This document shows, in pieces, positions 4,606-51,182 of a stretch of DNA of 64,000 nt. The notes under the pieces were generated by a model. The model was not told the origin of the DNA and searched no databases. It saw only the letters and a program-made list of their open reading frames with translations. Made by a program: the position numbers and the translations under genes. This DNA comes from Tribonema minus (lineage: Eukaryota > Sar > Xanthophyceae > Tribonematales > Tribonemataceae): contig JAFCMP010000006.1 in assembly GCA_017506865.1 (NCBI GenBank), positions 248,001 to 312,000 on the forward strand. Reading direction: 5' to 3'. How positions within the stretch are numbered: the first letter of the stretch is position 1; every line of letters begins with the position of its first letter.

Positions 4606-4681
4606 GTGCTGAGAGAGGGGAAGCCCCCTGCAGGGCATGTGAAGGGGGGGGGGGATGAGGAGAGTCTCATATCTGTACTTT

Positions 4682-12861: not shown

Positions 12862-13263
12862 GCTGCTTGCTGCTGTTAGTCACTTGCAAGTAGCCTGAGA
12901 GATACCCCAAGACAAAGTCCTCTGCCGTGCTTCAGGTAGCTCGGGTAGAGTGGATCGCGAGACTGTCGACCGCGCTGAAAAGAATGAGCGTCTTTTAAGC
13001 AGCGCTGATACTAACCCCGCTGCGCTGCTATTAAGCTATCCTTCACACTGCACTGCTCTCTCTCTCTCTCTCTCTTTCAAGTTTTCATCTTCATCGGTCC
13101 AGCTGCTCATCACCGCGAAAATGTGAAAAAAAAAGAAGGTGCAAACAAGATCAGAGGCGAGACACAGGAGCCACGTTCGAGCTCCGCAGGCGTCCAGGGG
13201 TTGTCTACAGCAAGCCACTTCGCAGTGACCTTCTTCCCTGAATAACACACCTCTAGTGGAGGG
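12862..13263. promoter_or_regulatory. Divergent promoter region between Y14 and SAR1
   Basis: The two start codons face away from each other across 402 bp. A (CT) tract lies at 13052-13076. No TATA box or known element was identified, so the promoter role is inferred from gene orientation only. Confidence 0.4.
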
Positions 13264-16200
13264 ATGTTTTTCGTAGATTGGTTCTACAACGTTTTGGCCT
13301 CTTTAGGTGAGCGCTCCAGCCTGCCTATAGCGACGCTCGCAGCGGAGCTAGCGGACTCCAGGTCCTTCTTGTTTGGTTGGATGGCTTTGGCCTCCATGCC
13401 TATGCGCTTCATGGCGATCATCAACAGCGCTTAACCCTTGCGAGCCGCCTTCTGGCGCTGCGCTCTGGGTGTTGGTGACAATATATATGCTGCGATTTGT
13501 CTGTTGCCAATGCTCTCGCCGTCCGCTACTTCTTAGGTTTCTACCACAAGAGCGCCAAAATCCTGTTTCTGGGGTTGGACAATGCGGGAAAGACGACGCT
13601 GCTGCACATGCTGAAGGAGAACAGGGTCCAAGTCCATCAGCCTACCTTGCATCCGAATCAGGTGACAAAGTGTCTTGCGATAGCGTTTTGCCTACAAAAA
13701 CGAATGTGATTTGCTACTCTTTCTGGTGGCGCTGTAGTTTATTTGTGTGATGCACTGGATTTTATGCTCCTGTGCAGATGCGCCCTCTCAGAATCCGGCA
13801 TGCCGGATTGCAAGGGTGCAGCTTTCGAGCACTCCCACTCGCAAGTGTGCTTTTTGTTCAGTTTGCTGATGTCGTCCTCCCAATTTTTGCTGTTGTGATG
13901 GCACCGCTGTATCGGATTGCCATAAACTATCAAGCCCTTAGCGATTTCATTCATATTCTTCTTGCCCCAACTTCAAAAACATCCATCAAGAGGTTTGACT
14001 CGCAGCAGCTGCGATCCGTCTCTTGCTGCCGCTTGAGCCATGCGGAGTCAAGTTCCAGTTCGTCCATGGCATTGAACAACATGTGTCGGTAGTGCCTCTG
14101 TTCATTAGCCTGCCTGCTGTCTTGTCTCAGTCGAGTCAGATCACATTTATTTGTTTTGAAATGTTTTCACTGCAGAAGCGCTTGGCTGCAGCGCTCACTG
14201 CAGCTTGTGCTTGAAAGCTAATCGAGTCAGATCACATCTACTTGTTTTCACTGCGGAAGCGCTTGGCTGCAGCGCTCACTGCAGCTTGTGCTTGAAAGCT
14301 CACAGGGGAGCCTTGTGGCACCTGGCGTCGGCAGCACGCTCTGAGCAGCAGTCGTGCTCTAACCCTAACCCTAAGCGATAGACTAGCATGCTTCGGATGG
14401 CCATGCCTGTGAATTGAGAATGGCGATCTGGAGGGCGCGGGGGTACGGTATGTAGGTATGGCTAAGACGGCGGTGAGGACGTCCAGGCAGCATCGCTTGT
14501 CGCAACACCTCATTCTGACAACACACAAGTCGTCACTTGATGCCATGCCCGGAGCGCCCTGTCCCTGCATTGCAAAACGCTCCAGAATTTTATTGTGATC
14601 ACACGGAAGGCCGTCGACGGTTTGCTACAGGACACAACTGGCGCCCTTCTTGCAGAGCGCAGGTGCTGCCTTCGTTCATTGGCGCTTAGTTGGAGAACAC
14701 CATTCACTGCGGGCATGCTGCGCCTGTGCCTACGCTTCTAAGCGCGCCCTCGTGCGCGCACTTGTGAAGTTGATGTTGGTGAACTTGATGTTGCCCTCAC
14801 TTACCACATGTCACACGGCTTCACGTTTGTGAACTTGATGTCGGCAAACTCCATGCTGGAGCGTGCTTGTGGAGGCCATCACACTGGAGTTTACAGGCGC
14901 GCACCGTCCGCTGCCACCAACACTTCACTTCCACTTTCAAAGCTACACTTGAAGTACACCATTCACTCCACTTCAGCAGCGCACATTATTCGCCATCGCC
15001 GCTGCATGTTCTAGCCAGAGCGCATGAAAGCAGCACTGCTCAGCCGAGCTGTGCTGTCAAACCCCCCGCCTCCCCCCCCCTTGACAGGATGAATTGATAG
15101 TGGGCAAGGTCAGATTCAAGACGTTTGACCTGGGAGGGCACGAGACGGCGCGCAAGCTCTGGAAGGACTACTTCACCACGGTGGACGGCGTGGTGTTCCT
15201 AGTGGACGCGCTGGACAGGACGCGCTTCCCGGAGGCTAAGACGGAGCTCGACGTGAGTGCTTCTACGTAGTCGTTTCGGAGGTGTCTTTGCAACTACTTG
15301 CACTGCCCATCAGTCGTGACTGTGTGAGTTCATTGCACCAATTCGTAGCTGGTGGACGAGCCGGACAGGACGCGCTTCCCGGAGGCTAAGACGGAGCTGG
15401 ATGCGAGGGCCTGTATGTAGTCATTTCGGAGGTCTGTTCTCAAATATCCGCCCTGCCTGCCGGTCACAAATGTATGATGTGATTGTACAGACTTACAGCT
15501 GATTGACACGCTAGACAGGACGCGCTTCTCGGAGGCGAAGACGGAGCTCGACGTGAGTGCCGCTGGCCTATCTGAAGGCGCCGGACAGGGCTGGTTATCA
15601 AGAACTTGTACTGCCTGCCAGTCACTACCATTCAAGTATTGTACTTCATACGTGGAAGTACAAGCTTTATAGCTGGCGGACGCGATGGCTCGGACGCGTT
15701 TCTTAAAGACTCAGGCTAAGGTGGAGCTCGCCGCAAGCGCCTCTAATCATCGTGGAGGTTCCACCAAGGCACACTGCCTCTCACTCACTGGACTCCTGAC
15801 AGCCAGCGTGAGGAACAGGGCTGCATGCGCCCCTGCTGCAGGTTGCGCAAAGCGCGACACGCTTGTGCTGCGTAACATACACAAACGCACAGGCGTGTTG
15901 CGCAAGTTTGATAGCTGGTGGTCGCGCCGGTTCGGACGCGCTGGTGCTGCTTGCCACGGTCTCATGCAGTCACACGCTGCCCATTCCGCTGCTGCTATCT
16001 CGATGGCAGTCCCTCCTGTGCGACGACAACCTGTCCAAGGTGCCGTTCCTGGTCCTGGGGAACAAGATTGACATGGCGCCTGCGGCCAGCGAGGACGAAC
16101 TGCGGTATGCGCTGGGGCTCTTTGACACGTTCGGCAAGGATAGCAAGCCGGACAACCCGGGGGTGCGGCCCATCGAGCTGTACATGTGCTCCGTCGTGAA

Positions 16201-16902
16201 GCGCATGGGATATGCCGATGGTGAGTCACCTCTTGCGCATGTGCGGTACGTGTCGGTGAAGTGGTGCTGGCCCTGACAATCCGGGGGTGCGACCCATTAA
16301 GCTGTACATGTGCTCCGTCGTGAAGCGCATGGGGTACGCCTACGGTGAGTCACCTCTTGCGCATGTTCCACACTTCAAGTGTTGATTCAAGTGTTAAAGT
16401 GCTGCTGGCAAGGACTTGGCAGTACTCAATCACCTGGGGATGCGGCCCATTGAGCTGTACATGTGCTCCGTCGTGAAGCCCGTGGGGTACGCCGACGGGT
16501 GAGTCACATGCATTCTACAGTTCAAGTGGCTGCAAGCGTTGAAGTAGAGTGTTTTATTCACGGAGTAAGCGCAGAAAATGCTGCCCTGTCAAGCATGCTA
16601 ATGCGGCAAGCCGCCGTTGCCGTTGCTGCTGCACAGACTGTCGGTGCTTGATGCCGCAGCACAGACTGTCAGAGCTTGGTTCTTCAAGAGGAGCGCAGAG
16701 TCCTCAGTGCAACAGACTGGCATGCTGGTGTGCAGCTTGAAGTCGAATTTTATGATCTCACAAAAACTTGCACAGTTGCTACGTCAACTGCACGCTGCCC
16801 ATGTCTTCTTGCTTGTCGAAACCGCGCGCTACGCTCACATCACATGCATGTCACGCCCCCTGTGTATGCGCAGGGTTCAAGTGGCTGGCGCAATTCATCT
16901 GA
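13264..16902 (+). CDS. SAR1: SAR1 small GTPase (COPII coat initiation)
   Basis: Five exons, 13264-13306, 13537-13661, 15088-15252, 16010-16220, 16874-16902, join exactly in phase to 573 nt, 190 residues, the usual length. The N-terminus [15 protein letters not shown] is the amphipathic membrane-inserting helix of Sar1. G1 is GLDNAGKT (27-34), the switch-I Thr lies in QPTLHP (51), G3 is DLGGHE (70-75, His74 catalytic), G4 is NKID (129-132), and the C-terminus is FKWLAQFI. Sar1-GTP inserts into ER membrane and recruits Sec23/24. Introns 3 and 4 carry conspicuous copies of the neighbouring exon ends. All catalytic elements are present, so the gene looks functional. Confidence 0.97.
14136..14300 (+). 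repeat. Tandem pair of ~85 bp in SAR1 intron 2
   Basis: Two copies contain GTCAGATCACAT, TTTTCACTGC.GAAGCGCTTG and GCAGCTTGTGCTTGAAAGCT. A short CCCTAA tract follows at 14358-14374. No exon sequence is involved. Confidence 0.9.
15347..15945 (+). repeat. Exon-edge echoes of SAR1 exon 3 (right edge), four copies
   Basis: The last ~55 nt of exon 3 plus donor (GGACGCGCTGGACAGGACGC to GACGTGAGTG, ending 15260) recur at 15347-15410, 15498-15560, 15671-15740 and, more diverged, 15911-15945. Spacing is about 150, 150, 175 and 240 bp. The intron bases after the donor are copied too, for example TCGTTTCGGAGGT and TCATTTCGGAGGT after the first two. The second copy keeps GACGTGAGTGC intact; the others have changed the GT. 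Confidence 0.95.
16275..16508 (+). repeat. Exon-edge echoes of SAR1 exon 4 (right edge), two copies
   Basis: The last ~70 nt of exon 4 and donor (GTGCGGCCCATCGAGCTGTA onward to GGTGAGTCACCTCTTGCGCA) are copied at 16275-16365 and 16428-16508 with few changes. The exact shared run CTGTACATGTGCTCCGTCGT in all three copies, and the shared intron sequence after the donor, show recent tandem duplication. Both copies keep a GTGAGTCAC donor. Confidence 0.95.
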
Positions 16903-17544
16903 GAGGGGCAAGGCGGGGAGAGGGGGAGGGGGCGCATGCGCGCTAGCAGGTGTCAGGTGGCGATGCTTAGCACGCACTGGCGCAGCAGCGAGAGCAAAGG
17001 GTGTGCGTGCGGTGCCAGCACACCTGTGTGCAAAGTGCACTATATGAATAGCCTTCAGTCACAGGGATAGGGGGGGCGGGGGTAGGGGAGGGCAGGGAGG
17101 CTGTATGCGTTCTCTCCGCAGTAAATTGAGACAGCCTGCAAAGCATGCTGCCTGTCAGCCTACGGTGATGCTGCTTGGCTGCTGCGGTTCATGCATGGCC
17201 TGCGTGTGCTGAGATTCGGCTCTGGATTTTGGTTCTGAAACATCAACTTGAAGTTTGTTGTGCAATGCTCACATGCTCCCATCATTTGCCCACCTGAGAG
17301 CCGGGCGTGCATCACCAGCAAGCTCAGACTTCTGGCAAAATGTGATCATCCTCAAGCAAAACTCAGAATTGTACACGCTGGTACAAAAATTATAAGTTGA
17401 AGTACACGCATAGGAAAGGAATCAATTCTGAACTCCATCCTGCAGTGGTGAGGTTTGTGAAAACTTCAACATCAACTTCAAGCGCGAAAAAAGTGTGTGT
17501 GTATTGTGCTTGCCCGGCCAACTAAAATTGCTAGGAAGGCGGTG
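16903..17544. other. Intergenic spacer SAR1-DPH1
   Basis: G-rich runs (16910-16930, 17068-17100) follow the SAR1 stop. The rest should hold the SAR1 3' end and DPH1 promoter. No gene or distinct element is seen. Confidence 0.5.
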
Positions 17545-20500
17545 ATGGATACCTGTGCGGACATAGAAGCAGCAGCTGGTGCTCTGCCGCAGCAGCCGGC
17601 AGCGCCAGCACTAGCAGCACCTCGAACCAATCGCAGACCACGACAAGCCCGCAGAGTTCCCGACAGCATCACAAATGATCCACAGCTCGCCGTCGCTATG
17701 GCTGCTCTGCCAGCCAACTACAATTTTGAAATACCCAAGACCATTTGGAAGATCCAGGAGCTAGTCCGAGAAGCAGCAGTCGGCATGTCACTTGCGCCCG
17801 GAGCAGCAGCAGCAGGAGCAGCGACACCGGCGGAGGCGGGAGCAGAAGCATTAGCAATACAGGCAGCACAGCCAGTAGCTCTGTCACCATCAGCAGCGGC
17901 GAATGCAAGGCCCAAAGTGGCGCTGCAGTTCCCCGAGGGACTGCTGATGTACTCCTGCGCTATAGCGGACATACTGGAGAGGTTCGCTGGCTGCGAGTGC
18001 GTGGTGTTGGGGGACGTGACCTATGGAGCCTGCTGCATTGACGATCTGACCGCAAAATCGCTCGGATGCGACATGATGGTGCACTACGGGCACAGCTGCC
18101 TGGTCCCAGTGTCTGCCACAGTCATCAGGTGCGTCTGTGCGCCACCCTGGCCTCGTGCATGCACAGTGCTGCTGATCATGTTCGGCAGCATTTCAGCTAA
18201 GATTAGTCTATGATCATGCCCGGAATTGCGGAAAGTGGCATTTGGAGTCTGGTCTCCAGATCATAGGCTGTTTCACTGCCTGTTGCCTCGCGCGTGTGCG
18301 ACGCGATGGCGCGCTTCGGAGCGCTGACACAGCTCTCTGCCTCCCCACGCCACAACTCGTCATTCACTTCTGCATACCAACAATCCTTACATGACCACAG
18401 CACATTCGTGATAAGCAGCAGGGGGCAAAATGAGGCGTAACTTAAAAAAAAAGAAAAGGTGCCGGTATTGGGCCTGACTCTAAGCAGCTTCCTGCTCAAC
18501 AACGGAGCGTCACTACACTGTTCACAACATTCGATGTCTGTCCACTCAGCACTGATTTTTGAAGCGTCTCTTCAAGCGCTTGAAGTTGAAGCGAGAAGCG
18601 CGCAGTAGCATGCGGGATACGGCCAGACCCAAGTCACAGCAGTGGCATGGAGCCTGGACGTGTGTTGGCTGCTCTGGGTGGGGTGAAGGGCGCGGTTTTG
18701 CGTCGTTGCACTGCCGCAAGCTGACGTCTATTCACGCGTGCGGAAAGTGCCACGTATTCGCGCGCGCAGATTGCCATGGACTGAGCCCCCCGTTGAGCAT
18801 TGCCATCAGCTGATGCATTCGTTTACAACCACAATGCAGAAGCGTTCGCTCAGCACCAGCACAGAGCGCAACATCCGACTGCAGCCCCCTCCCTCCCCCC
18901 CTCTTGCGCCTGTGCGCTCGTGAGTGCTGATCGCCATCAGACTGTAACCGCCTGTAACCGCCTGTTGAGCAATCACCACCGGTTAACCAGGAGCCATTCA
19001 CGACCGAGCAGCAGCGCGCTCAACACCAGTGCATCTCTCAAGCTTCAATTTTCGCACCAACCCCGGCAGGTGCCTGTACGCCATCCGTACTTGTGCAGCA
19101 GCGCTCAACACCTGTTCAAATGAGCGCTGTTTTGTTAGCAGTCGGGTTGCACTTGAAGATGTGCACTTGACGTCGCAGTTGTTCAACATCTGTTTGAGAT
19201 CAGTTCGAGATCTTCTGCACGGCTGAAACAGGTGAGCTGGAATGTAATGACACCATTGCACTTGCAATGCTCAGAATTCAATCTTGTTGACGTCACCCGG
19301 CGCAGGTGCCTGTACGTCTTTGTCGAGATCGCCATCGACGTGGATCATCTGTGCGAGTGCGTCAAAAAGACTTTTGCAGCCGGCACAGAAGTCGCACTCA
19401 TGGGAACAATTCAGTTTGCCAGCGCCGTTCACGAGGCGCGGACGCGGCTTGCGGAGCATTTGCCAGGTACGCATGTGTCCTAAAGTTGAAGTTTGAAGCT
19501 TGAAGTTGACGAAGCATCGACGCCGCGCTCATGGGCACCATTCAGTTCGACGGCGCGGTTCACGAGGCGCGGACGCGGCTCGCCGAGCATTTGCCAGGTA
19601 TGCATGCATGCATGGTTCATTATTTGAAGTTTGCAAATTGAAGAAGGTGGTGATACTTTGGAGTCACGCTCATGGGCACCCTCCAGCTTGCGGCCCTGTG
19701 CACGAGGCGCGGACGCAGCTTGCTGAGCACAGCCAGCACTATGTTTCATGCAGTTCCAAGTCGGCAAGCTGGTGATGCACAGGCATTGCCATTGAATGAG
19801 CACCATTCAGTTCGCCAGTGCCGTGCACGAGGTCCAAATGCAGCTCCTGAGCACTTGCCAGGCATGTATGTATGCATGATGTCCCAAGCGGCGGTCGATA
19901 TAGGGCATTGCTAGTGTTTGAATTGAACGTGGTGCCTCGTTGGCACCGACAGGACTCGTGAGGCTTGTAGAATATGCCAGGGCTGCGCGTCATATGGGCG
20001 GCGCGCGCCGAACAGAGCACTGCCACGACCTGCTAGCACGCCACTTGCAGCACAAGAGACACGCATGCACAGACAAGCCCTGCAGTACACGTCACAGCAC
20101 CAAAAGCGAGCACGTGAAATGCAACCTTCTCCAGTGCCGTGACCAGATTGGGAGCCACATGAGGCACGTCACAGGCATGTGTATACTTCAACTTTGACAT
20201 TGACGGCAATCTCTGTACATGCGCATCTGCGCATCTCCTCCGCCGGTACTTCCCTCTCCGTGACCGCAATGCTAATCAAGACCCCCACAGGCGTTCTTCA
20301 ACAGCTTCAAGCATGTGCGTACGAATGCGTCTGTCTGCGCACTACTTCAACTTAGGAGCCCCAGATGACCTCCCTTCCCAACGCTGTCAGGCACGTCGGT
20401 CCCCCAGGAAATGTCCCTGGGGAAGTCCTGGGTGACGTGTTCAATGAGCTTCAAGCATGCGCGCAAGCATGCGTCCCTCTGCGCACTACCTCCACCAAAG

Positions 20501-22245
20501 AAGTCCCTCAGACAACCGTCCTTTCCCCTTGCTGCAAAACGCCAACAGGCACATCGGTCCCCCAAGCAAAACCCCTGTCCCCGGGGGAGGTCCTGGGGTG
20601 CACAAGCCCCGCCATCGACGGCAAGACCGCGCTCGTATTTGTGGCGGATGGGCGCTTTCACCTCGAGAGCGCCATGATACAGAACCCGCACATGGAGCAC
20701 CTGCGCTACGATCCGTACAGCAAGGTGAGCTGCATGCTGAGATCTGCTGCCGGGGGGGCGCTGTTGCAACGTAGAGAGCCGCTGCTCACCAGCCTGTTGC
20801 TCCACACCGACAGAGGTGGACGTCAGGGTGACCAGTGCAACAGAAGGCCGACGCCAATCGCGTGCTGCTAGCAGTGAATTGTCTCGTGTAGTCCGTGTAC
20901 CGCCAAGTCTACCGGCAAGTTCAACTGAGTAACCGTCAAAGCGGCAATGCTCGTGTAACTGCCATGTGCTCCAACAAGCGCTGCGCAGAGGGGATACACG
21001 TCCCTCGCAGTCGCGTCGCGTTGCAGCGACGTGCACACGTTGGCTGCGTTGTCTTTCACGAGTGCGACAACATCGGATACCAAAATTCGATGAATTTGTC
21101 ATCCGCGCGTGTCAAGCATCATTATGCAGCGCTAGGATCATACACAGCAGGGTGCGCTGCGCGTGCGTTCTTGCCTGAGCGCTGCATCCCAGTGATGCTG
21201 CAGCTGAGTGTGTGCTCACAGTGATACTGGAGCAGTGTTTCCCGGTAACAGCTGATACAGGCTGCTACATACAGAGCTCTGGCTGCCGGATACAGTTGAG
21301 CAGCCGACACCGTGTGATGACTGGCTGCATGCGAACCCTAACCCTAACACACCCTGACCCAAACACACGCCGGCGGGCGTGCTTCGACTCTCCTTGCTAA
21401 TTTGGGGGGAGAGGGTAGGGTTAGGCTAATCCTTACTTCAAACTTTAACCCTGGCCCTAAGTGTTTTTGTCCGCATCGATCTCACGATATGCTGCGTGCG
21501 CGTGTATACTCATCAGGTCCTGTCGCGCGAGGGCTGCGACACAGACGAGGATGTGTATATATATATGTGTATATATATATATATATATAGATTCTCTGCG
21601 CGCACGAACGCTGTGACGCTTGCGGTCGCCGGCAGTTGATCACATCCGTGCACGCCGCAGCATGCGCTGTCCTGCACACGTGAAGCCGCGGCAGTGTGAC
21701 TATGAATACTGTAAGTTGAAGTGTGCTATTTGACGCTTTGCACTGATCTGGCGTGCTCTGCACTGCACACACAAAGCCGCATTGGGCTTACGTTGATACG
21801 ATGCGTTCGCGTGTGTACTCGACAGGTCCTGTCGCGCGAGGGCTACGACACGGACAAGATGCGCGCGCTGCGCCGCGCCGCCATCGACCGCGCGCGCGGC
21901 GCCACCGCCTTCGGCGTCATCCTCGGCACGCTCGGCCGCCAGGGCAACCCGCACATTCTCGACCGCCTGCTTAGCATCCTCACGAAGCACGGCAAGCGGC
22001 ACTTCGTCATGCTGCTCAGTGAGATCTTCCCTGCGAAGCTCGCGGCGGTGAGGGGCGTGGATGCGTGGATTCAGGTCGCGTGTCCGCGGCTCAGCATCGA
22101 CTGGGGGCACTTCTTCGACAAGCCGCTGCTGAGCCCGTACGAGGCGGAGGTGTGCCTTGGGGAGACGGACTGGCGCGCGGTGTACCCGATGGACTTTTAC
22201 GCCAAGAGCGGGGGCTCGTGGTCCAATGGGTTCACCGCTCGATGA
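17545..22245 (+). CDS. DPH1: Diphthamide synthesis radical enzyme subunit DPH1
   Basis: Exons 17545-18128, 19306-19466, 20549-20724 and 21826-22245 join in phase to 1341 nt, 446 residues (human DPH1 443). With DPH2 this enzyme transfers the 3-amino-3-carboxypropyl group of S-adenosylmethionine to a histidine of elongation factor 2, the first diphthamide step, in the cytosol. Family blocks are [16 protein letters not shown] (55-70), [10 protein letters not shown] (125-134), [33 protein letters not shown] and [11 protein letters not shown]. The three cluster-binding Cys expected of DPH1 are present (163 or 164, 266, 393). An Ala-rich insert of about 40 residues (roughly 77-120) separates the first two blocks. 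Exon edges are heavily copied in the introns and beyond the stop codon. Confidence 0.97.
19060..19092 (+). repeat. Exon-edge echo of DPH1 exon 2 (left edge)
   Basis: CCCCGGCAGGTGCCTGTACG matches the acceptor and start of exon 2 (CCCGGCGCAGGTGCCTGTAC, 19296-19315) 240 bp upstream of it. Confidence 0.75.
19521..19868 (+). repeat. Exon-edge echoes of DPH1 exon 2 (right edge), three copies
   Basis: The last ~75 nt of exon 2 and its donor are copied at 19521-19605, 19662-19740 and 19789-19868. All share CTCATGGGCACC or GAGCACCATTCAGTT, then CACGAGGCGCGGACGC or a relative. The first copy retains TTGCCAGGTATGC as a usable-looking donor; the later two are more decayed. Confidence 0.95.
20287..20497 (+). 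repeat. Exon-edge echo of DPH1 exon 3 (left edge) and repeated intron flank
   Basis: At 20379-20445 the acceptor and first ~55 nt of exon 3 (CAGGCACRTCGGTCCCCCA, GGGGAGGTCCTGGG) occur a first time before the real exon at 20549. The intron piece CTTCAAGCATG.GCG..ATGCGTC.. at 20300-20340 is likewise repeated at 20450-20490. Confidence 0.85.
21490..21553 (+). repeat. Exon-edge echo of DPH1 exon 4 (left edge)
   Basis: GCGCGTGTATACTCATCAG followed by GTCCTGTCGCGCGAGGGCT copies the acceptor and first ~35 nt of exon 4 (real acceptor at 21825). A TA microsatellite follows directly at 21554-21590. Confidence 0.9.
21554..21590. repeat. (TA)n microsatellite
   Basis: Alternating TA with two TG interruptions, in DPH1 intron 3. 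Confidence 0.95.
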
Positions 22246-22955
22246 ATATAAATGTTACAATGTGCAACGTGCGTGCGTTGTTACGTTCTGAGTGATGTGC
22301 GCACTCTCTCACTTGATTGCTGCGCGGCGATGTGTGCGCAATCCGATGGACTTCCTTGCCAAGAGTGGGGGGTCGTGGTCAAATGGGTTCACCGCCTGAT
22401 GAATAAAAATTTGACAGCGTGCAATGCGCTGCATTCTGATTGCGCGTCATGCAGACTCTCTCAGCTGGCTGCTGCGGTGGCGGCGACGTGCGCGAGCACT
22501 TGGAGATGAGGTTTGGGTGCGCGGTTGAGCACTGCTGCGCGCTGCAGTGCAACATGTATGTGGCTAGATTCCGAGTGCACGTCGTGCAGACTCTCTCAGC
22601 TGGTGGTTGTGCGGCGCGACGTTGGCGCCAGGTAGAAAATGAGGTTTTGGGCGCGGTTGAGCGCTGCTGCACGCTGGAGTGTCACCTTGTGCATAGAGGT
22701 GAACACAACAGTTTGACTGACAGACAAGAAAATTACATGCTCTAGTGAACAACTTTTCAGTCACTTTTGCCTGTCTTGATACTCTCGCCGTACCCCAAGC
22801 AACTCATAGGCTTACATTGGTGCGAAGAAACTTCTGGGGCCCCCTCCGCGGCGGGGTTCGGCGCATCCAATGTTGAAGATCCCCTCAGTTTTTGGACACA
22901 CACGCCAAAACTGTGCTCGGGTGCTGTGCGTATACCCTAGATAGCCTTTGCCACC
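22246..22955. other. DPH1-M16 spacer with tandem repeat
   Basis: After the DPH1 tail copy, a ~115-bp unit repeats twice (22447-22562 and 22570-22690; anchors GCAGACTCTCTCAGCTGG and GCGCGGTTGAGC.CTGCTGC). The remainder upstream of 22956 should be the promoter of the M16 gene; part of it (GAAACTTCTG at 22826) has a counterpart before the paralogue at 53248. Confidence 0.6.
22335..22428 (+). repeat. Copy of the DPH1 3' end including stop and AATAAA
   Basis: About 95 bp downstream of the true stop (22245), the last ~65 coding nt recur (CCGATGGACTT, GCCAAGAG.GGGGG.TCGTGG, GGGTTCACCGC). The stop and GATGAATAAAAAT, a polyadenylation-like signal, follow in both (AATATAAAT at the original). Since no intron lies here, this shows that the duplication process is not tied to splice sites. 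Confidence 0.9.
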
Positions 22956-25900
22956 ATGTTGAAACGCCAGCTGTCGGGGGAGCTGCTTACTCTCCACGAA
23001 GGGCAGTTTCACAAACATGAGAAAGAGGAATTGGAAGTCCCTGCTGATGTCGCAGCAGCGTTAGAGATAGCGGCTGCGCTGGACGGAGAGGAGGATGCTG
23101 CTGTGCTTGAAAAGGAGGAGTTCGAGGCATCCAAGGTGAGTGCATCACCTTACCACCTATCATGTTGTTCTCATCACGACTGTCTCAAAGTGGCTTGAAC
23201 TCACTTGAGGCGCTGTTGCATGCATGCAACAGGTGGAGTTCACCATGGAGCAGGAAATTCCGTTCGACACCCGCGTGGTGACTGGTCAGTGCCTCAAAGT
23301 CCCCATGCTGCGTATAGGCTTTGGCTCAGAGAGCAATGACAGTGGTGCAAACCATCAACGTGACCTACCTGTTGAAGTTAGTTTATGTCAGTTGTAGCGA
23401 CCAAAGGACACGCTATGGTCAGATGACATGGTCATTTTCTACTTGAAGTATCATGCCCTGCCCTGTTGTTCGGAACATCATACCAGCAAACACCAGTAGG
23501 TACTGTACCTCAGCATCGCGTTGCTGCGCCACCTGCGGATAATTGCCATGATGCTAATTGCAGGTCTCTATGCCGCTGATATGAACATTCAAGCTCAAGG
23601 TACCCGGCTGCAACAATCACAGATTGCGTCATCTAGCAACAACAGTGCAAATCACTTTTCCTGCTGCATACAAGCCCTTGGTGAAAATCTTCACCCTAGG
23701 TTGTGCGGGCAAGAATAGGGTTACGCGCCTGCCAATGCACAAACTGAGAGCCACATACGCTGCTTGTTGCCTCGCAGGCGAGCTTGAAAACGGGATGAAG
23801 TACTACGTGTTGCATAACCCAGAACCCCAGAATAGGGTGGAGCTGAGTGTGGCAATAAAATCGGGGTCGATCCACGAAGCCAACAATGAGCGCGGCGTTG
23901 CACACATGGTTGAGGTAGGTTGGTAGTGTCATTGGCTCTCAAGAAGGGTATGTATAAGTATGATTTGCAGACGTGCAGTGCATGCCTGCGTGGCGTCTCT
24001 GTCGTCACGCGCATGTTTTGAGGGTCAATGGCACATGCGACGAAAGCTGAGGGATCGTCTACTTGTGCACTCGAGAGTCCATCTGTCAGTCCACTGTACC
24101 CCATGTTCATGCCTACATGTTTGGACCGTTCTAGACGTCCTTGTGCAGAGAAATCAGCGCACTTGGTGATTTATCCACGTGGTGTCACAGTGATTGAAGC
24201 TTTAACGCTTGATGCTGCAAGTACCAAAAGTCACGCCAATTTTGAGTGCAATGTACCATAAGGTCGTACTGTGTCCCTGACCGTCTCTGTCCGGAAGCTT
24301 GCTTGAGGCTTACGCAATTGCTTTTCATTAGGGGGTCAAGTATTAGGTTTTGGGTCAGGGGCATTTCTTTCAGTGCTTATACCAATGCACTTGCTTCGCG
24401 CGGCGCAGCACCTGGGGTTCCGCAGCTCCGAGGGCATGGAGGGCGAGTTTGAGATCATCAAGCAGCTGGAGGTGCGTACCAGTGCTGAGCTGACGTCTAC
24501 TTGATGTACAATCTAGCACTCGGTGAGCGTTCAAATTTTGTGGCCGATGCTCAGGTGATGTGCGTGTCAGTGCTTACCAGAGGTGCATGCCAGTGCTCAG
24601 TATAGGTGTGTGCCACGGCTCAGCGCATACATATATATTCATATATGTCAGTGCTCAGCAGAGGTGTGTGTGGCGCAGCGCTCAACAGCGGTGCACAGTC
24701 AGTGCTCAGCGCAGGTGCATACGTATCAGCGCTCAGCAGAGGTGTGTGTCAGCGCTCAACAGAGATGCATACATGATGATGTGTAAGTAGTGCTCGGGGA
24801 TGACGTACTCTTGGTAGCGCACAGGGGAGGGGCGTTTCAGCGCGGCGTACATCAGTGCTCGACAGACATGCGTGCCAATGCTGAGGGGTTAGGGTTAGGG
24901 TCAGGGTTAGGGTTAGGGTTAGTGCCCAGCTGAACGGCAAGCATGCACAGCGCACAGGCGCTGCATACTGCTGCGTTGTGACTGTTGCAGCAACAGCTGT
25001 CGTTGCACGTCGCTGTGTCGTGCTTGTAGTAGTAACAGCTGACATCGAATGACCTGCTCTCATTGTGCATGCTTCGGATGGGTTTTGATGCTTCCGCTTT
25101 GTACACTTGAGCGCAAAAGCGCCAATAATGCAGCTGCTGTTGATTCAGACATGAGTGTCATGCACTCATCACCCGCCTTTTCGGATCGGCGTTTCATGAA
25201 TTCATTCATCTGCCCAGGCTCTCGGCATCAAGTTCGGTCCCCATCAGAATGCGTACACCAGCTTTGACAGGACTGTGTATCAACTTCAAGTTCCGCTGGA
25301 CGACATGGACATGCTCAAGCAGGGCATGAGGGCCCTGTGTCAGCTGGTGAGACTTCATTGAGGTTATTCTGGTGACACTCTGTCACAACAATTATGCTTC
25401 ATGCAGTAGAAGCTGAGCGACGTGACCACCGCCTTACCCTACCCTGATTGTACCCTATTCTTGCCGATCAGATAATTGCTCTCCACCCTATTTGCAGTTG
25501 GACTCCACCATATGTGGAGTTTAACGATTACTGTGTGTTGTGTCCAGTGACACGATGCACGTTTGATAAGCCTCGTGTGCCACGCAAGAGTGGGAGTAGC
25601 ACAGCCATCATGATGCAGCGTCGAAAGCAATCGCGCTGCCATCTGTCAGTTGCTGCAGGTGCGCTTGTCCAACACAGTTCAGGTATACATTTGTGTTGAA
25701 CTATACATTGCAGATGCTAAAGTAATAATTTTGACTCTTGCAACCCTTTTATTTTCCTGTCTTATCATCCCTCTGCTTCTGTATGTACTTGTTGCCTGTA
25801 TTTATGGATCCAATAAAAATGCAGCAAAGAAGGTAAGCTGCGCATGCGTTGTTGTCCTTCACCAGTCTCTGCAGATGCGTCTGTCGGATGAAGACGTGGA

Positions 25901-40900: not shown

Positions 40901-43900
40901 GTAAGTCGTGTTGCTCATCACCACTAGCCATGAATGGAATATAAATTCCTCCCATTGTTTGCTCATGGTCTTGTGTTTTGCTGAGAGTCACCAAGGTTTG
41001 CAGCCCTTTCTGATTATACATACTGTCACTGCTGACCAATCATGATGGGGCAGCGCAAAGTACGCAAATATGAGTGCTCAATTAGTAGTGGAGTTGGGGT
41101 GGTTAACACTAAGTAGAAGTAGGTCGCAATAAGGGACGACGAGATTCTCTGAGGGACGACAAAATTCTCTTTTCCGTCAACGCAAATGGCAACCAGTCAT
41201 GACTCGACTCATGTTCATCACCACTGTTTATTTGTACTGATCTTCCGCGTTTCTCCCCCCAAGACGCTGGCTTGAGAAGTGCAAGTACCATTTGCGTGAG
41301 ATGGTAACACTGTTAATGCTAACTTTGCTGTACCCTTGGTTCTTTTAAAAAAATTCAGAGCAGCCTCGTTGCTACCACTTGAAGTTGCAGTACATGAGCT
41401 GTGTACATTTGAAGTTTTGTGTACGCTGGCCCTTGAAAGCATGTGCATCGACGCCCCGGGCAATGCCCTGCAACACTGCCCTGCTTATCTGTCGCTCCAC
41501 TGCCCGCAACTTCTACGCAGCTTCAAAGCTCCAATGGGCTTGTTACATCTTGAAACCAGCTGCAAAAACCCCATTGTCAATTGACGAATCTTCGAAGCAA
41601 TTGCAAAGCCAGTTAATAGGCTAATTGCAATGATTCACGGCACTGACCTGCTCGGATGGCACTCGTTCGCCCGCAGGCATGAATGAGGTGCCGCCTGAGC
41701 ACATGATAAATGCCATTATGGCAGATGCCATTGCTCAGCAGATGGGGATTTTTGGGGTGCCTCCGCGGTCGCTGCTCGACCTGGTGAGACCGCCAGCTAG
41801 GGTTTGGGTTATGGGTAGGGTTAGAGAAGGTTAGGGCTAGGGTACTTTAGGGTTGGGGCAGGTTAGTGTGATCTTCGCAGCGCCTCCGCAGTCGCTGCAC
41901 GTCCTGGTGAGACTGCCACTTAGGATTAGGGTTAGGATAGGTTAGGGTCAGGGCAGGTTAGGGTTAGGCCTGTCCTCAATGCTGCTTTCGCGCCCATGCG
42001 TGAGCACTTACAGAAGGCTCAGGGCTACATAGGGATGATATTCCGGACGCATTAGAGGTAGGATTAGGGTTAGGGTTAGGATGAGAGTCCCACTCGTAAA
42101 AATGTTCCGCAAGTTTGCGCAGTATACTTTGGCTCGGAGAATTCGCTAAAGGTCATTGCGCAGGTTCTTGGAATCCCCCTGCTGTGAACATTGAGTTGAG
42201 TGTGCCGATGACCGCCATTGTATTCTACTATGATCTACTCTGATGTTGACAAGAGCTGCGGATGCGCACGCATTGTGCGGGCCAGGCCACAGAGTGTATT
42301 GCAATCGCTATCGCTAAGAGGCAAAATCGACACTCTCAATGTTCCTGCAGGGTGATGCAAAGCAGCATTGCTCAGCATTGTGCCCTCAAACACTGTGCCT
42401 TCCCTAAACACCCTTAACAGGGGCATGCATGTAATGGTGTGCTGATTGTAGCGTGCTCGCGGCTGCCGGTGATCTTGCCGATATGTGTTCCCTGCTGCAT
42501 CAGTACTGTGTGGCGCATGCCACTAGCATACCTCTCTACCTGTATGGTCATCTCACAGACATCCGAGCTCATCAATGCCATGGCTGCATACAGCCGACAC
42601 CAATTGCAACGCAGCAGCGTGTGGAGCGCAGTCACGAGCGCAAGTGCGCCCATTGGCTCTCATTATTATCTTCAACACGTGACGCTCCGCAGCTCCAGCC
42701 TGAGCCGTTTCTACACGCTACTTCAGAGTGTCTTGAGCGCTGTCACACACTTAGATGCTCACACATCTGATCATCATTGCCATCATCATCAACACGTGAC
42801 GCTCCGCAGCTGGCCGGGTGTTGAGTACTGTCACGTGCTCAAATGACGTCTGATCACCACCACCACCATCTTCAACAGGTGACGCTCCTGCAGCTGGCCG
42901 CGGCGGCGCATCACGTTCAAGACGAGCATCGTCAACATCATTGTGTTTAGTGCTGTCACGCGCTCAAATGTCCACGACTGATCATCACTACCATCTTCAA
43001 CACGTGACGCTCCGCAGCTGGCCGGGCGTCGCATCACGTTTGAGACGAGCGTCGGCAACATCTACAGGGGGTGCTCGGGGGTCTGCCTTGCCGACGACCT
43101 GGAGACGGCGCTGCAGATGGTCAGTGCTCAGAACTTCAAGTCATCAGTGCTCAGCAGATTCTATCCGAATCATACAGAAATACTTGCGGAGTAGATGGTC
43201 AGCGATCGGCAGCTTCGCGTTGTCCTTGCTCAGCAGATGGCGTTCGAATCAGCAAACGATTCTCCAGGAAGTTGTCTGACACATCGTTCACTTTGTCAGG
43301 GCTCAGTGACTTCGTTTGTACTTCATTACTTCCGCTTGAGGGGCGGAAACCCTATGAATGCAAAATGTGAAACTCATGTACACATGTGCTGTATCAAATG
43401 TGTAGCACATGTGCTATCTACACTATAGATATATCAAACGTTTGTACCAGTGCTCAGCAACTTCAGTTCGGATGGGTTGGTGCTTGCCAGTTTGTTGAGC
43501 TTCTGATATAGTTCTCACTTGTGTACACAGGGTGCTGACTCACGAAGAGGTAAAAGCTCTGACAATAGAGCGTGGGGGGAGCGTTCTGAGCACTGCTGCC
43601 TACCAAAGCGACGCCACACTTAGGAGTCGCTATGCGCCCTACAAATTGATGCAGCACGGACACCTAACCCTAGCCCTAACCCTAGGGCTCACAGACCACC
43701 CGCACACGTGCGCATGCCACTGAGCCTGTGTGATCTTCCCAAACCTTGTCCGTAAGAGCAACATCGCGACAGAATGACGGATCGCAGAGCGCGCCTCTGA
43801 TGTGACCATGATGTGACAGTAAACGGGCGTGAGCACTGCTGCGGTCTGGTGTGACCAATCTCAACTGTCTTCGTTGTCCACCAGTCACGTCCAGCGGCGC

Positions 43901-46900
43901 AAATGTGACAGCGCTCAGCACTTGCTGTGGCCCCGCCGTGGGCTGCTCGTACCATCCCAGTGCCCTTGTCCCTCGGAGTGCAGTGCCCCCCCCCCCCCCT
44001 CAATCTCCATTGCATTGGGTGGGTGGGCAGAAAGCCGTTGATCAGCAAAAACTTGGGGGTTATGGCTGGTGGTCGCCGCATGACTTTGTTGAAGGAATAA
44101 AACTTCAAACCACATGATCACGCTATAAAACGATATCATGCATGCGCACTCAACGCATGTGACATCACTGCTTTCAAGCACTTCATGAGCTTGCCCATTC
44201 ACGTGCTAAAATATGTGCATTTTCACCCTCAGACAAGACTTGAACCCTCCCCCCCCCTCCCCCCCCCTGCTTACACACCCGTTCTTGCAGATTCACGTGC
44301 TGTTCACCGCACGCATTGAGTATGACGAGGAGCGCGTGGAGCATGTCATGGCCCTGGTTAGGGAGGGCGTGGCCAGTCAGTCCAGGGACCCCAGCACGCA
44401 GTTCTCCAACACGCTGTGGGGCATCATCACGCAGGTGATTGAACTGTACTGTGGTGTACTGTGTACTAGTGTGTACTGTGTGCTATAGTACAGAGTACTA
44501 CGGTGCACAGCGCACACTGCACCAGGTTGTGCTCATGTTCCCTGCAGCGGGCACGCCTGCAATGGTTACTGTGCATCAGCGTGTACTGTGTACTGTACTA
44601 AAGTGTACAGCAGAGACCGCGCCCGGTCGTGCTTGTGTTCTCTATGCTGGCGCGCCTGTGTTTGCCGGTCCGCCTCTTGGCTGAGCGCTGACACCTCGCG
44701 CAATCCTGCGCTACTGCCACCTCACGACCACAATATTCTTTATGTTCCATTGGAGCAGGCGCTTGCCGCCTCCCAAGTGTGCCCAACACTGCGGAGTGCT
44801 GCTATCACAACACGCTTCTGAGTAGGGACTTGCCTGCTTCAAATGCGCGCCTTACTACACTTGGCATACGAAGTGCCGGCACATTGACGACCTGCTGCCA
44901 ATGCGCTTGCCTCATTGACGCTCCGCTCCAATCTTCATGTGAAAAGTGTAACTGCTTGCCACGTTGTCCCGCAGAACCATCCGTGGTATGCTCCTGCGTC
45001 TGTGGAAATGTTGGACACGGTCGACGCCAAGCACAGCCTCAGCATATTCAACGACATGTTCAAGAACCCCGCCGAGTTCAGGTGTGACATGCCTCTGCAC
45101 CAGCACGGCACGCATAGATTTTTTGTGTTTATTCATATGCTGGTGCCATTGTTGATAGCGTGTGCAGCAGCTGATTTTGCTGTGCAGCAAAGTAGCTGCC
45201 CTTACTGGCAGCGTTGACTGTACAAGCACTGAGTTCATCATGCTATGAAAGTACGCTCTGTTGCACTCAAACACCTCGCACAGTCTGTCACGTGAGCCGG
45301 GTATGCTGACCCTGGCCCTAACCCTAGCCTAACCCTAACCCTAACCCTAATCCCACCGTACAGGTGCACATTCGTGCCCACACTTAATTACTGTAGGCGG
45401 CTAATTAGGGTCAGGGCTAGGATTAGGGTTGGAGTTAGGGTTAGAGTTAGGGTTAGGGTTAGGTCAGCACATCCGCAATGCATCACCACCACCCTTGATA
45501 ACACTTGCAGTGCAACATGCAAATCGTCAGCCCCGCTGTTGCTGGTCTTCAAACTCGGGAAGTCGGTAATTTATTCTGAAAGCATCTGAGGCGAGCTTGG
45601 ACAAGGGTCTGCGCTCGTCTAGCGACGCTGGTCCTGAAATATGCAGTAGGAACATTTGCAGGGGGGTATCTACAGCATCCATGACGCATAATCTGATACA
45701 TACCCCCACACAAGATCCACTAGCAAAGCAGCGTCTCAGCAAGCATGTATTGACCGTCTCCGCATGTTCTGCTTGTCTTGCATGCAGAATGGTGATGTGC
45801 GGCAGCCTGGACCCTTCAGAAGCCGAGCAGCTGTTTGAGATTTATCTGGCCAGCATACCCGTGCCCAACCCCCCCCCTGGCCCAATACTGTGAGTGCGCG
45901 CATGTCGAGCGATGCCTCATGTCTCAACACCAATGGCATGCCTCTTTCGTTGCTCACAAATGGCGCTTGCAGTGTGCATCCGCGTGCGCTGAGCATGTAT
46001 GTATGTCCATACTTTTGAAAAGTATGTGCTTAGAAGTGGGTACTTCAAGAAGCTTGGCCAGGCGCGGACATGAGCTTTGCACATTCCTGTTCAGATGTTT
46101 ACGGTTGAGTATGCACTCGCAGTGGACTCTTTGAATGGAGAAGCACGATGCGAAATGTTTGCTGAAGGGCTCCCATATTTCTTGTGTCATGCAACCTAGC
46201 TGGTGTGATGATTGAGCTGTTTCAGCTCAGAACCAGCAATGGGCCGCAAGAGCTTTCAAAGTTGTTTAGGCAATCTCGGTGCTTCTGCTGTCGATCACGT
46301 GTCATATGTCATGAGCAACCCTCAAGATTAACGAGATGGCACCATGGTTGCCACCCCGTATTGCTGGGGCAACTTGATATTGATCCAAGCAAGAGTGTGG
46401 CTAATGCGCCACGGTGCCCTTTTAGCTGTGACCTTCGCGATGTTTTCTGCTTGTGCAATTCCTAGCCAGCCCCGGTAATCCCTCAAAAACCACCGAGGAC
46501 TGTGGAACCACCCGTAAATTTCAAACATGTTTGGGTCGCCAACGCAGGTCGGTGTCAGAGGTGACTCCCCTGAAGATCACGTTCCCCACTGTGGGCGAAG
46601 TGTGCGAGCTGCATCTGCCCATGGTGGATGACACGGCCAGCACGGTGATAACGCTGCCTGCAATGGTCGGCGGCGCAGCGAACCCGACACACCAGGGCCG
46701 CATGCAGGTCTGTATGTGTACTTCAAGTGTACAGTACATTGTAGCTGTAGGCATGTCTTGTTCTTTGCTTAATAAGTACTGAACTTCGAGAATTACCAGC
46801 TTTGTACGCTGCCTGCAACGGTCGGCGGCGCAGCGAACCCGACACACCAGGGCCGCATGCAGATATGTATGCATATCACATCGGAATATGGTACTTCGAA

Positions 46901-49900
46901 GTATGCAGGGTATGTTTTGTGTGTGCAACAGCACCAGACAAGGAAGTGTAAATGATTGGACTGCCACAGACTTGAAGCACGGCCTTGCCGTTGTGTTGAA
47001 GCTTTTGCTGAAGTTTTTACTGCACCGGCCAGGTGTGACCCAGGTTGTGCATAGGTCGCCTGTTGGTAATGGTTGCCTTAACCTATACCCATCGCACCAA
47101 CATAGTTTTCGCTTCATCGATAGGCGCAACTGGGTAGGCATTGTTGTTCTGTGTGCTGATGCCAGGGTCATTGCAGGCTATTCTGCACGATTCACGTACC
47201 CTGCCTGCACAGGCAAGTGCGCAACCACCCCCAATCCTAAACCTAACCCTGACCCTTCCGCCTCGGCAGCGCCAACAAAAAAGTGCAACGATCAAGTCAT
47301 AGCATGAGTGTGCCCGCACGCACATGACCATCTTGACGACGCACACTTGCGCCGTTGGATGCTTGGCAGGAACGCGTGCTGCTGGCATTCACGTGTAGGC
47401 CACACAGGGTGTAGGTCACGCAGACTGTAGGCACAACACACTGGCCTGCTGAAAGTGTATGTATCACTCCATCCGGCATACATACCTCTTAAATGGCGTT
47501 TGCACATACATGAAAGTCACAAATGTTCAAAGCATGCTCCCGCCTGGCTGGCAGGACGAGGTACTGCTGGCATTCGCGTGCAGAGTCGCGCAGGACCGGC
47601 TGACGGAGGTGCTGCGGTTCGATCTGGGCAGCGTCTACAGCGTGAGCGTGTCCCACGTGAGCCCTTTACGTACTCATCATGGCCTCGTAGTTCACTCTCT
47701 ATGGACTCATAATGTACTGCTGGGGGTGCTGCGGTTTGACCTGGGCAGCGTCTACAGCGTGAGCGTGTCCCGCGTGAGTGAACAATTTGCGTACTTCTCA
47801 TGGACTCATTGTGTACTTGTTGTGAACTCACTCAGTGATATCATGAAACCGATGTGAAGTTATCAGGTACCCAACGTCACCATGAACTTAGTCATGAACT
47901 TGGCATGAACAAGCGGTCGTGGAAGCTGTACCCAGAGCCAGCTGCAGTTAACCCCTTCATGTACTCATCTGTATTCATTATGGACTTACGGTGTACTCAT
48001 CATGGACCCAGGTGTCATGAAGCTGCACAAGAGGGCAGCTCCACCGTGCACGCATGACTACACGCAGCCACGTCTGCACGACTCAGCATGAGCTGCCACA
48101 ACCATGTACATGTCTCAGGACTACTGTAGAGCAACATGCAAATATGGATCCATTGTGCATTGTCCGCAGTAGTGGGCAGTTCGCAGCGTCGTGTCCTGAT
48201 GCACAGTCATGTGCCTCATGCCTCTATGGCATCAGTTGTTCAGTGCTGTCCTCTGCGTGTTGCTCATTGTGTCAGCTCAGGTGCGCTGCACTGTCGAGTG
48301 CACGTGATGAGTCCTGCACATGCCGCTCGCCCTGCCTGCCCGCACTTCGTGATGACAAAAGCATTGAGATGAACGTCTTCTTAGGTGTACGTATAATAGC
48401 AAAAGCTTGTTTGATTTGTGTTGTTGTGGTGTAGGGCTTTCACCGTGAACGTTTTCAGATTGTAATATGCACTTCTAAAGTATGATGGTATTTGGCGTGC
48501 TGCTACTGCCCTGCGGTTCATGAACAACGAACGCACGCCCCTGTTGTTTGTGGTGACGTCTGAGGTGTTTCATGACGATTTACTCCCTACTGGTGCTGCC
48601 CTCCATACCATACATGATATCAATGTCGTGCCGTTTCCGCAGTCTGAGCACGGCCGCGCGCCGCCGCGGCTGCCCGAAGACCCGGTCCAGTATGTGGTCA
48701 CCATCTCGTACACATGCAAGCCCAGTGAGGTGCCAGTGCTCAGGCAAAAGGTGAGCCGATACTGTAGGTATGTGGTTGCTACATGCATTACCTTCCAGCC
48801 CTACGAGGTGCCAGTGCTCAGGCAGAAGGCGAGCGGAGCCCTGTGTCCTGCGCGGCAGCAAACCGTCAGGCATGTGATGATATGTGAGCCTGGCAAAAGC
48901 TGTTTGGGATATTGATGATGATGTTGCTGTACCGATGTTAGGAGTTTTTGCCTAGTTCAAGCGGCTCCAGCGTTATGGTGCAGGGCAGACCAGCACTCAT
49001 TATCAGTCAGTGCAGGCAAGATGAATGCACAGCCATGCTACTGCAAGGCTCCCTTGCCAGCACAATGCCAGCTCGCGTTATCGGAATAATTCTGTAGGAT
49101 CAAGTTTCCGGCCATGAAGTGCAGAGGGGGCACATTGTATTACTCCAGTACATTTCACTGTGCGAAGCTCTTGCAAGGCACAAAGTGCAGCAGTACATCT
49201 CAACAGCCCCAGACCTTCAGTTCCAATGATATCTGCCATGCTCACTTGCACTGCCGTTTCTGCTGATGCTACAGCACTGAGAAAAGCAAGTGCAAAGCAG
49301 CTGCCACTGCGAAATGGGAAAAGCAAGTTCAATGCCTCTGCCATACCTGACACTTCCATTCATGCCGTTATTGCAGATGTAATCGGGGAGCAAGCTCAAG
49401 CCCTCTGCCATGCTCTCACGCACTGCCACTTCATGTTGCATGCTGTTATTGCAGATACTGGAGGAGCTTGCCAAGATGCAGCAGGAGCCCCCCTCAGACG
49501 CGGACGCAGCCGACGAGGCAGTGCTGAAAGAGGAGGAGGTGTCCAGCGCCATAACCGCTGCCGCGAGGGACACGGAGGTGGATCAGCGTACCAATGAGTG
49601 AGTGTGCTGCTTTGCCTGAGCGCTGCTGCTGCCACTTGCCACGTCAGCACTCCGTTGCCATGGTGTGGAAATGCACTGTGCAGCAGGAATCAAAGTACTG
49701 CATTTCTGTTGTCGAAAGCGACACGGATGTGGATCAGCGCACGGACGAGTGAGTGCGGCAACTTGCCTGAGCGCTGCAGCTGGTGCCAACTGCTGTGTGT
49801 CAGTGCTCCATCATCGAGCGGAGCACTGTAGGCGCGTCAAGGGCGCTGTACAACGAGTCATTAGCATTCATGATGCTATTCGCGCTCACGTGCTGCACTT

Positions 49901-51182: not shown

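Follow-up and report, generated by a model that had tools for sequence, protein, structure and literature searches.

Why do the ends of exons recur in the introns beside them? The question is raised by a 64,000-nt stretch of the Tribonema minus genome (contig JAFCMP010000006.1, positions 248,001 to 312,000), here called the window, in which many exon edges have extra copies, or echoes, in adjacent non-coding DNA. The window is eukaryotic genomic DNA with GT-AG introns, and clear echoes were found in three neighbouring genes, SAR1, DPH1 and M16A; a fourth gene, M16B, is a paralogue of M16A and was used for comparison. All counts given here come from this single window. The echoes are probably head-to-tail tandem duplications that crossed exon borders and then decayed mostly neutrally, with an excess at the borders of the three genes.

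Once microsatellites and telomere-like runs had been masked, a BLAST comparison of the window with itself, restricted to pairs at most 1.5 kb apart and with a raw score of at least 30, returned 67 direct and 2 inverted local pairs, compared with 0.2 pairs per shuffled sequence. An edge scan, in which each exon border was probed against its own flanking DNA with shuffled probes as control, located a same-orientation copy in adjacent non-coding DNA at 25 of the 62 scanned edges of SAR1, DPH1, and M16A. Strong echoes (scores 30-88) were present at 2 of 5 edges in SAR1, 5 of 7 in DPH1, and 18 of 50 in M16A. The exon-edge copies are thereby confirmed as real, and they involve the same exons that an earlier note on this DNA had listed: exons 3 and 4 of SAR1, exons 2-4 of DPH1, and exons 6, 9, 11-13, 15-18 and 22-25 of M16A. 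The number of copies per edge, put at one to four in that note, held up as well, since SAR1 exon 3 has three clear echoes and one weak one, while the right edge of DPH1 exon 2 and the left edge of M16A exon 15 have three each. Two other statements had to be narrowed. Four genes had been named; three show clear echoes, and M16B yielded only weak matches at 3 of 23 edges (scores 24-26). Each copy had also been said to include a splice site; one of the 25 echoing edges is the border between the stop codon and the 3' untranslated region (3'UTR) of DPH1, where a segment made up of the stop codon and the start of the 3'UTR (22186-22245) recurs at 22343-22681. Because this non-splice border is echoed too, splice sites in themselves are not a requirement of the process.

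Tandem duplications lying wholly within introns also occur (e.g. 14131-14300 and 28311-28472), which raises the possibility that duplications fall evenly along the genes and that those bearing exon sequence simply stay recognisable longer. Automatic clustering without masking gave 38 repeat families between 13.4 and 50.7 kb, of which 25 touch an exon edge and 13 do not; a strict count, without the M16A exon 16 match and a doubtful exon 17 match, puts 23 of the 38 at edges. The clustering merges the left and right families of M16A exon 6. An alternative count of 33 families, with 24 or 25 at edges, involved some manual curation, in contrast to the automatic 25 of 38. For young copies the count (11 of 19) rests on visual inspection, and no conclusion is drawn from it. 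Uniform placement would put 20% of families at edges. This expectation rose to 27% when 2400 single duplications were placed on M16B in a forward simulation that included neutral decay, exon constraint, and BLAST detection; exon-bearing pairs were detected in 74% of cases, compared with 55% for the others, so that a detection bias of this kind does exist. With that bias included, the probability of at least 25 of 38 edge families was 9.8e-7 at a rate of 27.5% and 1e-4 at an assumed rate of 35%, and that of at least 23 of 38 was 2e-5. The equal density of duplications away from edges that would have marked the pattern as ascertainment was therefore not seen, and ascertainment as the sole cause is unlikely, even though intron-only and intergenic duplications exist.

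The excess was not confined to the splice site. Local repeats covered 35% of the last 25 exon nucleotides, 20-28% of the first 200 intron nucleotides, and 11.5% of the intron beyond 300 nt. Among 12 of the 13 non-edge families, 7 lay within 70 bp of an exon where 2.4 were expected (P = 0.004); with one telomere-like and one dispersed family removed, the figure was 5 of 10 (P = 0.024). Since non-edge families also lie near exons, it is exon borders with their surroundings, and not splice sites alone, that show the excess. Among the 13 non-edge families, the two at 26242-26842 and 38597-40013 also have matches in other parts of the window; both are probably dispersed repeats, which would strengthen the edge excess further and speaks again against ascertainment.

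The layout of the copies was consistent with tandem duplication. Unit statistics were obtained for 23 of the 25 edges (the left edge of DPH1 exon 2 and the stop-codon edge were left out): the unit, or spacing to the nearest copy, was 78-309 bp (median 151, interquartile range 124-184), and the exon part of the unit was 15-91 nt (median 45). Left and right borders behaved alike (10 and 13 of the 23 measured), and units were confined to the near half of the exon in 21 of 23, where 57% was expected (P = 0.0004). The copies lie close to their source and in the same orientation, as head-to-tail duplication would leave them. In 12 of the 25 edge families the unit aligned over at least 80% of its length, in 3 over 50-80%, and in 10 over less than 50%; one of these 10, at the left edge of M16A exon 15, is a miss of the script, the alignment showing an array. 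In the automatic clustering all but two edge families crossed the border by at least 5 nt. One exception, at exon 16, ends 2 nt before the border is reached; the other, a match of 15 nt to exon 17 at a distance of 1.5 kb, is probably due to chance. A tandem duplication that echoes an edge must include the border, whereas a pasted patch need not, so the border crossing favours tandem duplication.

The way in which the echoes have diverged seems to be mostly that of ordinary non-coding DNA. Corrected divergence was compared in 20 of 63 pairs, those whose exon and intron parts both aligned over a sufficient length. It was 0.157 for exon sequence and 0.327 for intron sequence, a ratio of 2.08 that rests on alignments with cheap gaps and on overlapping pairs within families, so that intron divergence may be underestimated. 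A ratio of about 2 is expected under neutral decay because divergence between exon and echo is one-sided, whereas that between intron copies is two-sided. Gene conversion from exon to echo was considered for the right edges of M16A exons 22 and 12 and of SAR1 exon 3, and is not required by the pooled ratio.

Codon positions were compared in 36 of 38 hand-anchored echoes, two with unclear ends being left out. Raw mismatches between exon and echo showed a strong third-position bias (50/554, 48/543, and 133/546 at the three positions). Base and CpG composition was rejected as the cause (44 third-position mismatches expected, 133 seen). Translation of the echoes was first suggested by this bias; once changes were polarised, the working exon accounted for most of it. 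When M16B served as outgroup (exons 6, 9, 11, and 12), echo-side changes were 8/159, 17/153, and 18/152 (p = 0.09), exon-side changes were 1, 0, and 11, and a further 1, 2, and 5 were left unassigned; polarisation by sister echoes gave exon-side changes of 0, 0, and 9. The combined resolved echo-side substitutions, 31/409, 34/400, and 44/402, had no clear codon-position bias (p = 0.26). The raw bias is inflated because each change in the working exon is counted again in every sister echo. Constraint thus appears to have acted mainly on the working exon, and some past constraint on the echoes is possible. Gaps were present in 11 of the 36 echoes, and 10 of these have a gap run whose length is not divisible by three. 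The donor GT, read from the printed sites, was kept in 12 of 19 right echoes.

Several points weigh against this interpretation. The P values for the edge excess treat families as independent, yet in several cases a single exon has families at its two ends; the window, too, was selected for its striking appearance. Thirteen of the 25 edge families align over less than 80% of the unit, and for about half we infer the tandem layout. Gap openings per 100 columns number 0.5 within exon parts, compared with 4.4 within intron parts; this contrast exceeds the expected twofold difference, and the cheap-gap alignment may explain part of the surplus. At the right echo of M16A exon 22 (46651-46920), a near-intact exon part (56 of 57 nt kept) stands beside a decayed intron part (35 of 54), a combination that simple neutral tandem duplication leaves unexplained; this echo is possibly a recent conversion or a patch-like copy. 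An isolated patch of this kind, together with the roughly half of the families that cannot be aligned as whole units, is what copy-paste repair would leave if breaks in introns were filled by patches templated on a nearby exon border. Such repair also predicts inverted patches and patches from exon interiors; one 15-nt interior match and one match ending 2 nt short of a border were seen, inverted pairs were 2 against 67 direct, and 12 of 25 families align over most of the unit. We regard copy-paste repair as an improbable source of the echoes as a whole.

Further points of the same kind concern coding constraint. The even echo-side codon count omits 16 ambiguous sites in multi-echo families, of which 3, 1, and 12 fall at the three codon positions; if every such site is assigned one change in an echo, p is 0.02, and with two changes per site it is 0.0008. 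At 12 of these 16 sites, two of the three echoes agree on a base unlike that of the exon and the third matches the exon, a pattern that fits a change in the exon between successive duplications; for this reason neutrality is preferred. CAG was kept in 19 of 19 left echoes, above the neutral expectation, in echoes that were hand-anchored at AG. These values, the raw third-position bias, and the open frames of some echoes would suit echoes that are or once were functional, as alternative exons or reserve splice sites under selection. Against such a function stand the assignment of most of the codon bias to the exon by both polarisations, the frame-breaking gaps, the loss of GT in right echoes, and the splice-site scores, in which a second, partner splice site was not in excess among the echoes (p<0.1 for 2 of the 19 right echoes and for none of the 17 left ones). 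Hidden cassette exons were rejected, as far-end splice-site scores were no better than chance. The proposal that echoes form a selected supply of alternative splice sites consequently found no support, with the caveat of p = 0.02 from the ambiguous sites, and we consider functional echoes decidedly improbable.

M16A and M16B share intron positions, exons 2-12 are equal in length, the frames are open, and dN and dS are 0.12 and 0.40. In the compared stretch, echoes scoring at least 30 were present at 8 of 23 M16A borders and 0 of 23 M16B borders (Fisher p = 0.004), although by the scan's own significance rule the counts were 8 and 3 of 23 (p = 0.17). BLAST clustering found no local repeat family in M16B; Tandem Repeats Finder (TRF) lists two short-period arrays (23 and 18 bp). 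Introns 6, 10, and 11 of M16A are longer than those of M16B by 0.7-2.7 kb. Shorter ancestral introns were rejected as the source of the edge bias, given that M16B introns 2-5, 7, and 9 are sized like those of M16A; from these similar lengths, introns were probably already several hundred bp long at the paralogue split. The old left echo of M16A exon 6 lies within homologous intron sequence (25475-25742 in M16A, 56115-56378 in M16B) and has a weak match at the left edge of M16B exon 6, while M16B exon 9 has a left echo at 58757, 2.7 kb from the exon, in an intron of 2934 nt compared with 770 nt in M16A. Because left echoes of exons 6 and 9 occur in both genes, the duplication process seems to predate the M16A/M16B split, with strong echoes in one copy.

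False duplications are a familiar problem of assemblies, and divergent haplotypes or reads falsely joined at conserved exon ends could in principle mimic echoes. Such an artefact is very improbable here: up to four copies of graded age occur at one edge, the copies carry frame-breaking gaps and no clear coding constraint and are unlike alleles of the working exon, and the exon 6 left echo sits in homologous intron sequence of both paralogues.

The findings are consistent with a simple course of events. Small tandem duplications of about 80-310 bp (median 151) would arise recurrently, with units that include an exon border. A duplication of this kind would spare the working border and, because that border stays intact, would be tolerated, after which the extra copy inside the intron would decay mostly as ordinary non-coding DNA. 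The earlier note had proposed repeated local events of differing age, and this is supported. It had also described right edges as copied downstream and left edges upstream, with the working exon innermost; the arrangement is seen, but it is not an independent regularity, because it follows from duplication together with the need to keep the spliced exon intact. The background is about 0.4 duplications per kb, with a several-fold excess, in this window, at and around the borders of the three genes beyond what detection bias gives. Most likely, we infer, this excess reflects where duplications start, as a mutational hot zone, rather than selection for the copies. A broader version, in which exon borders genome-wide form a hot zone for nucleosome-sized (~150 bp) tandem duplications, for example through nucleosome-phased nicks or Okazaki-fragment ends in transcribed exons, and in which edges feed intron growth and spare splice sites, appears rather unlikely, and its nucleosome part is speculation drawn solely from unit length. 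If it were true, the longer introns 6, 10, and 11 of M16A would be examples of edge-driven intron growth.

Exons were modelled manually on the sequence, and the models were then tested for splice sites and open frames. On the joined exons, Pfam identified Arf in SAR1, Diphthamide_syn in DPH1, and Peptidase_M16 with M16_C for the M16 family; the joined M16A protein aligned with the M16 peptidase 9ldy over residues 67-522 and 618-926 in a PDB search. The M16A model breaks frame from exon 14 to exon 15, and between exons 6 and 7 it seems to lack a few residues, so it probably omits one or two small exons. Exon 8 of both M16A and M16B ends at a GC donor (GACAAG|GCAAGT; 29001-29012 and 58568-58579). 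Positions are listed in Table 1.

Table 1. Working exons, echoes, and the comparison gene (window coordinates; exon positions given under remarks are those of the working copy)
Feature	Position	Strand	Remarks
SAR1 exon 3, working copy	15088..15252	+	GT-AG model; Pfam Arf
SAR1 exon 3 right-edge echoes, three	15349..15745	+	splice points 15402, 15552, 15732; TRF period 150
SAR1 exon 3 further right-edge echo, weak	15903-15942	+	
SAR1 exon 4, working copy	16010..16220	+	GT-AG model
SAR1 exon 4 right-edge echoes, two	16272..16545	+	splice points 16344, 16498
DPH1 exon 2 short left echo	19066-19080	+	
DPH1 exon 2, working copy	19306..19466	+	GT-AG model; Pfam Diphthamide_syn
DPH1 exon 2 right-edge echoes, three	19524..19878	+	
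DPH1 exon 3 left-edge echo	20303..20432	+	exon 20549-20724
DPH1 exon 4 left-edge echo	21486..21549	+	exon 21826-22245
DPH1 stop codon/3'UTR-start echoes	22343..22681	+	working copy 22186-22245 and on; non-splice border
M16A exon 6 old left-edge echo	25647..25677	+	counterpart in M16B near 56286, read from sequence
M16A exon 6 left-edge echo	25817..25956	+	86%; exon 26075-26216
M16A exon 6 right-edge echoes, two	26458..26642	+	
M16A exon 9 left-edge echo	29609..29645	+	exon 29777-29907; M16B counterpart at 58757
M16A exon 9 right-edge echo	30073..30252	+	
M16A exon 11 left-edge echo	34142..34222	+	exon 34292-34366; nearly contiguous 85-bp unit
M16A exon 11 right-edge echo	34500..34525	+	
M16A exon 12 left-edge echoes, three	35207-35253, 35547-35586, 35866-35924	+	exon 35996-36160
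M16A exon 12 right-edge echo	36289..36412	+	
M16A exon 13 left-edge echo	36530..36567	+	exon 36646-36776
M16A exon 15 left-edge echoes, three	39016..39481	+	exon 39588-39815
M16A exon 16 right-edge echo	41154..41189	+	exon 40795-40900; match stops at exon end, without intron part
M16A exon 17 right-edge echo	41882..41968	+	exon 41677-41783
M16A exon 18 left-edge echoes	42729..42939	+	exon 43018-43119; TRF period 125
M16A exon 22 right-edge echo	46806..46871	+	exon 46548-46707
M16A exon 23 left-edge echo	47364..47398	+	exon 47555-47656
M16A exon 23 right-edge echo	47722..47830	+	
M16A exon 24 right-edge echo	48797..48837	+	exon 48643-48750
M16A exon 25 right-edge echo	49717..49782	+	exon 49455-49597
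M16B, paralogue of M16A, exons 1-12 up to window end	53366..63913	+	comparison gene

Other sequences were noted in and around these genes. Intron 8 of M16B (58757-61508) is about 2.2 kb longer than that of M16A and contains an open frame of 739 aa (58779-60998) for which Pfam gave no match at E<=0.01; at its 3' end, a 91-bp stretch (60989-61079) recurs inverted at 51952-52042 with 99% identity. The segment 31516-31593 matches the left flanks of exon 11 in M16A (34133-34180 and 34237-34265) and in M16B (63060-63127), and is perhaps an older, displaced copy of the exon 11 left flank, 2.7 kb upstream. A dispersed repeat occurs at 4674-4827, 38597-38721, and 39896-40046, the first copy being 79-81% identical to the other two, which flank M16A exon 15. 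A second dispersed sequence lies in several M16A introns (26243-26297, 26714-26783, and 35766-35828), with a short inverted match between 35764-35791 and 50070-50096. Interstitial telomere-like TTAGGG/CCCTAA sequence forms 17 runs totalling 518 bp, many of them intronic (e.g. 24886-24922, 41798-41866, and 45405-45463). The sequence ACTTGAAGT occurs 9 times in the window and its reverse complement ACTTCAAGT 7 times, each expected about 0.14 times from base composition. On the minus strand, an open frame at 11136-11747 has an RRM domain in Pfam and another at 12421-12876 is without a Pfam match; the two together resemble RBM8A/Y14. Scans of viral contigs for relatives found none, and Rfam gave no match at gathering scores.

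One known system to compare with is tandem exon duplication, as in mutually exclusive exons, where whole exons are copied with both splice sites and kept by selection. The echoes likewise place duplicated exon sequence in the adjacent intron in the same orientation. They differ in being partial copies, with at most 91 exon nt at the 23 measured edges, and in showing no clear coding constraint.

Mobile elements carrying splice sites, above all introners (transposon-like introns), are a second candidate. Introners are described in excerpts of PMC7789003 and PMC9860276 as dispersed families inserted at many places, and like them the echoes are repeated sequences that include splice sites. Dispersed sequence does occur in the window, both as the matches at 4674, 38597, and 39896 and as the copies at 26243, 26714, and 35766 beside echoes of exons 6 and 12. 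Each echo, however, is a local copy of its own exon border, and within the window no single element was found dispersed among many introns. Long-range or inverted pairs at E<=1e-3 numbered 51, comprising 11 between equivalent M16A/M16B exons, 14 telomere-like pairs, and 26 others, none of which joins exon-derived echo parts of two different exons. An origin from introners or other mobile elements is scarcely credible for these copies.

In the Rogers model, as reviewed in the sections of PMC3443670 available to us, an intron is gained by tandem duplication of an exonic AGGT, and the excerpted PMC2891723 describes Drosophila cases in which duplications within exons yielded new introns. The source event is shared with the echoes, namely a local tandem duplication of coding sequence. 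In the Rogers model, though, the unit lies inside an exon and the new intron between the copies, whereas the echo unit extends across a border that already exists, and all 11 intron positions compared are common to M16A and M16B. The same sections of the review hold tandem duplication to be the only proposed mechanism of intron gain shown to be genuine in vivo and say little on where such duplications start (PMC3443670). If borders were preferred in some lineage, introns could grow and splice sites be duplicated through a directed mutational supply, without selection. A decaying series of copies would then serve as a relative record of the duplication process, and the echo-rich M16A and echo-poor M16B offer a ready test of what controls it.

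The earlier note knew of no named process that produces such copies, which holds only in part. A single published case of border-crossing tandem duplication does exist: in the potato RdRp gene, according to the accessible part of PMC4974935, a duplication across an intron end and exon start created a new spliced intron confirmed by RNA reads, and an 83-bp duplication confined to an intron is present in that gene as well. Recurrent border-crossing duplications at many exons of one gene were not found in a literature search that also covered dinoflagellate introns and nick-induced duplications and that left most subscription journals outside its reach. As in potato, a border-spanning tandem duplication in the window carries the splice site along (PMC4974935, in the part cited). 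Single border-crossing duplications have thus been published, and the density and edge bias seen here are apparently new: where that report describes one event in one gene, the window holds echoes at 25 edges of three genes, as copies that apparently lie unused in introns.

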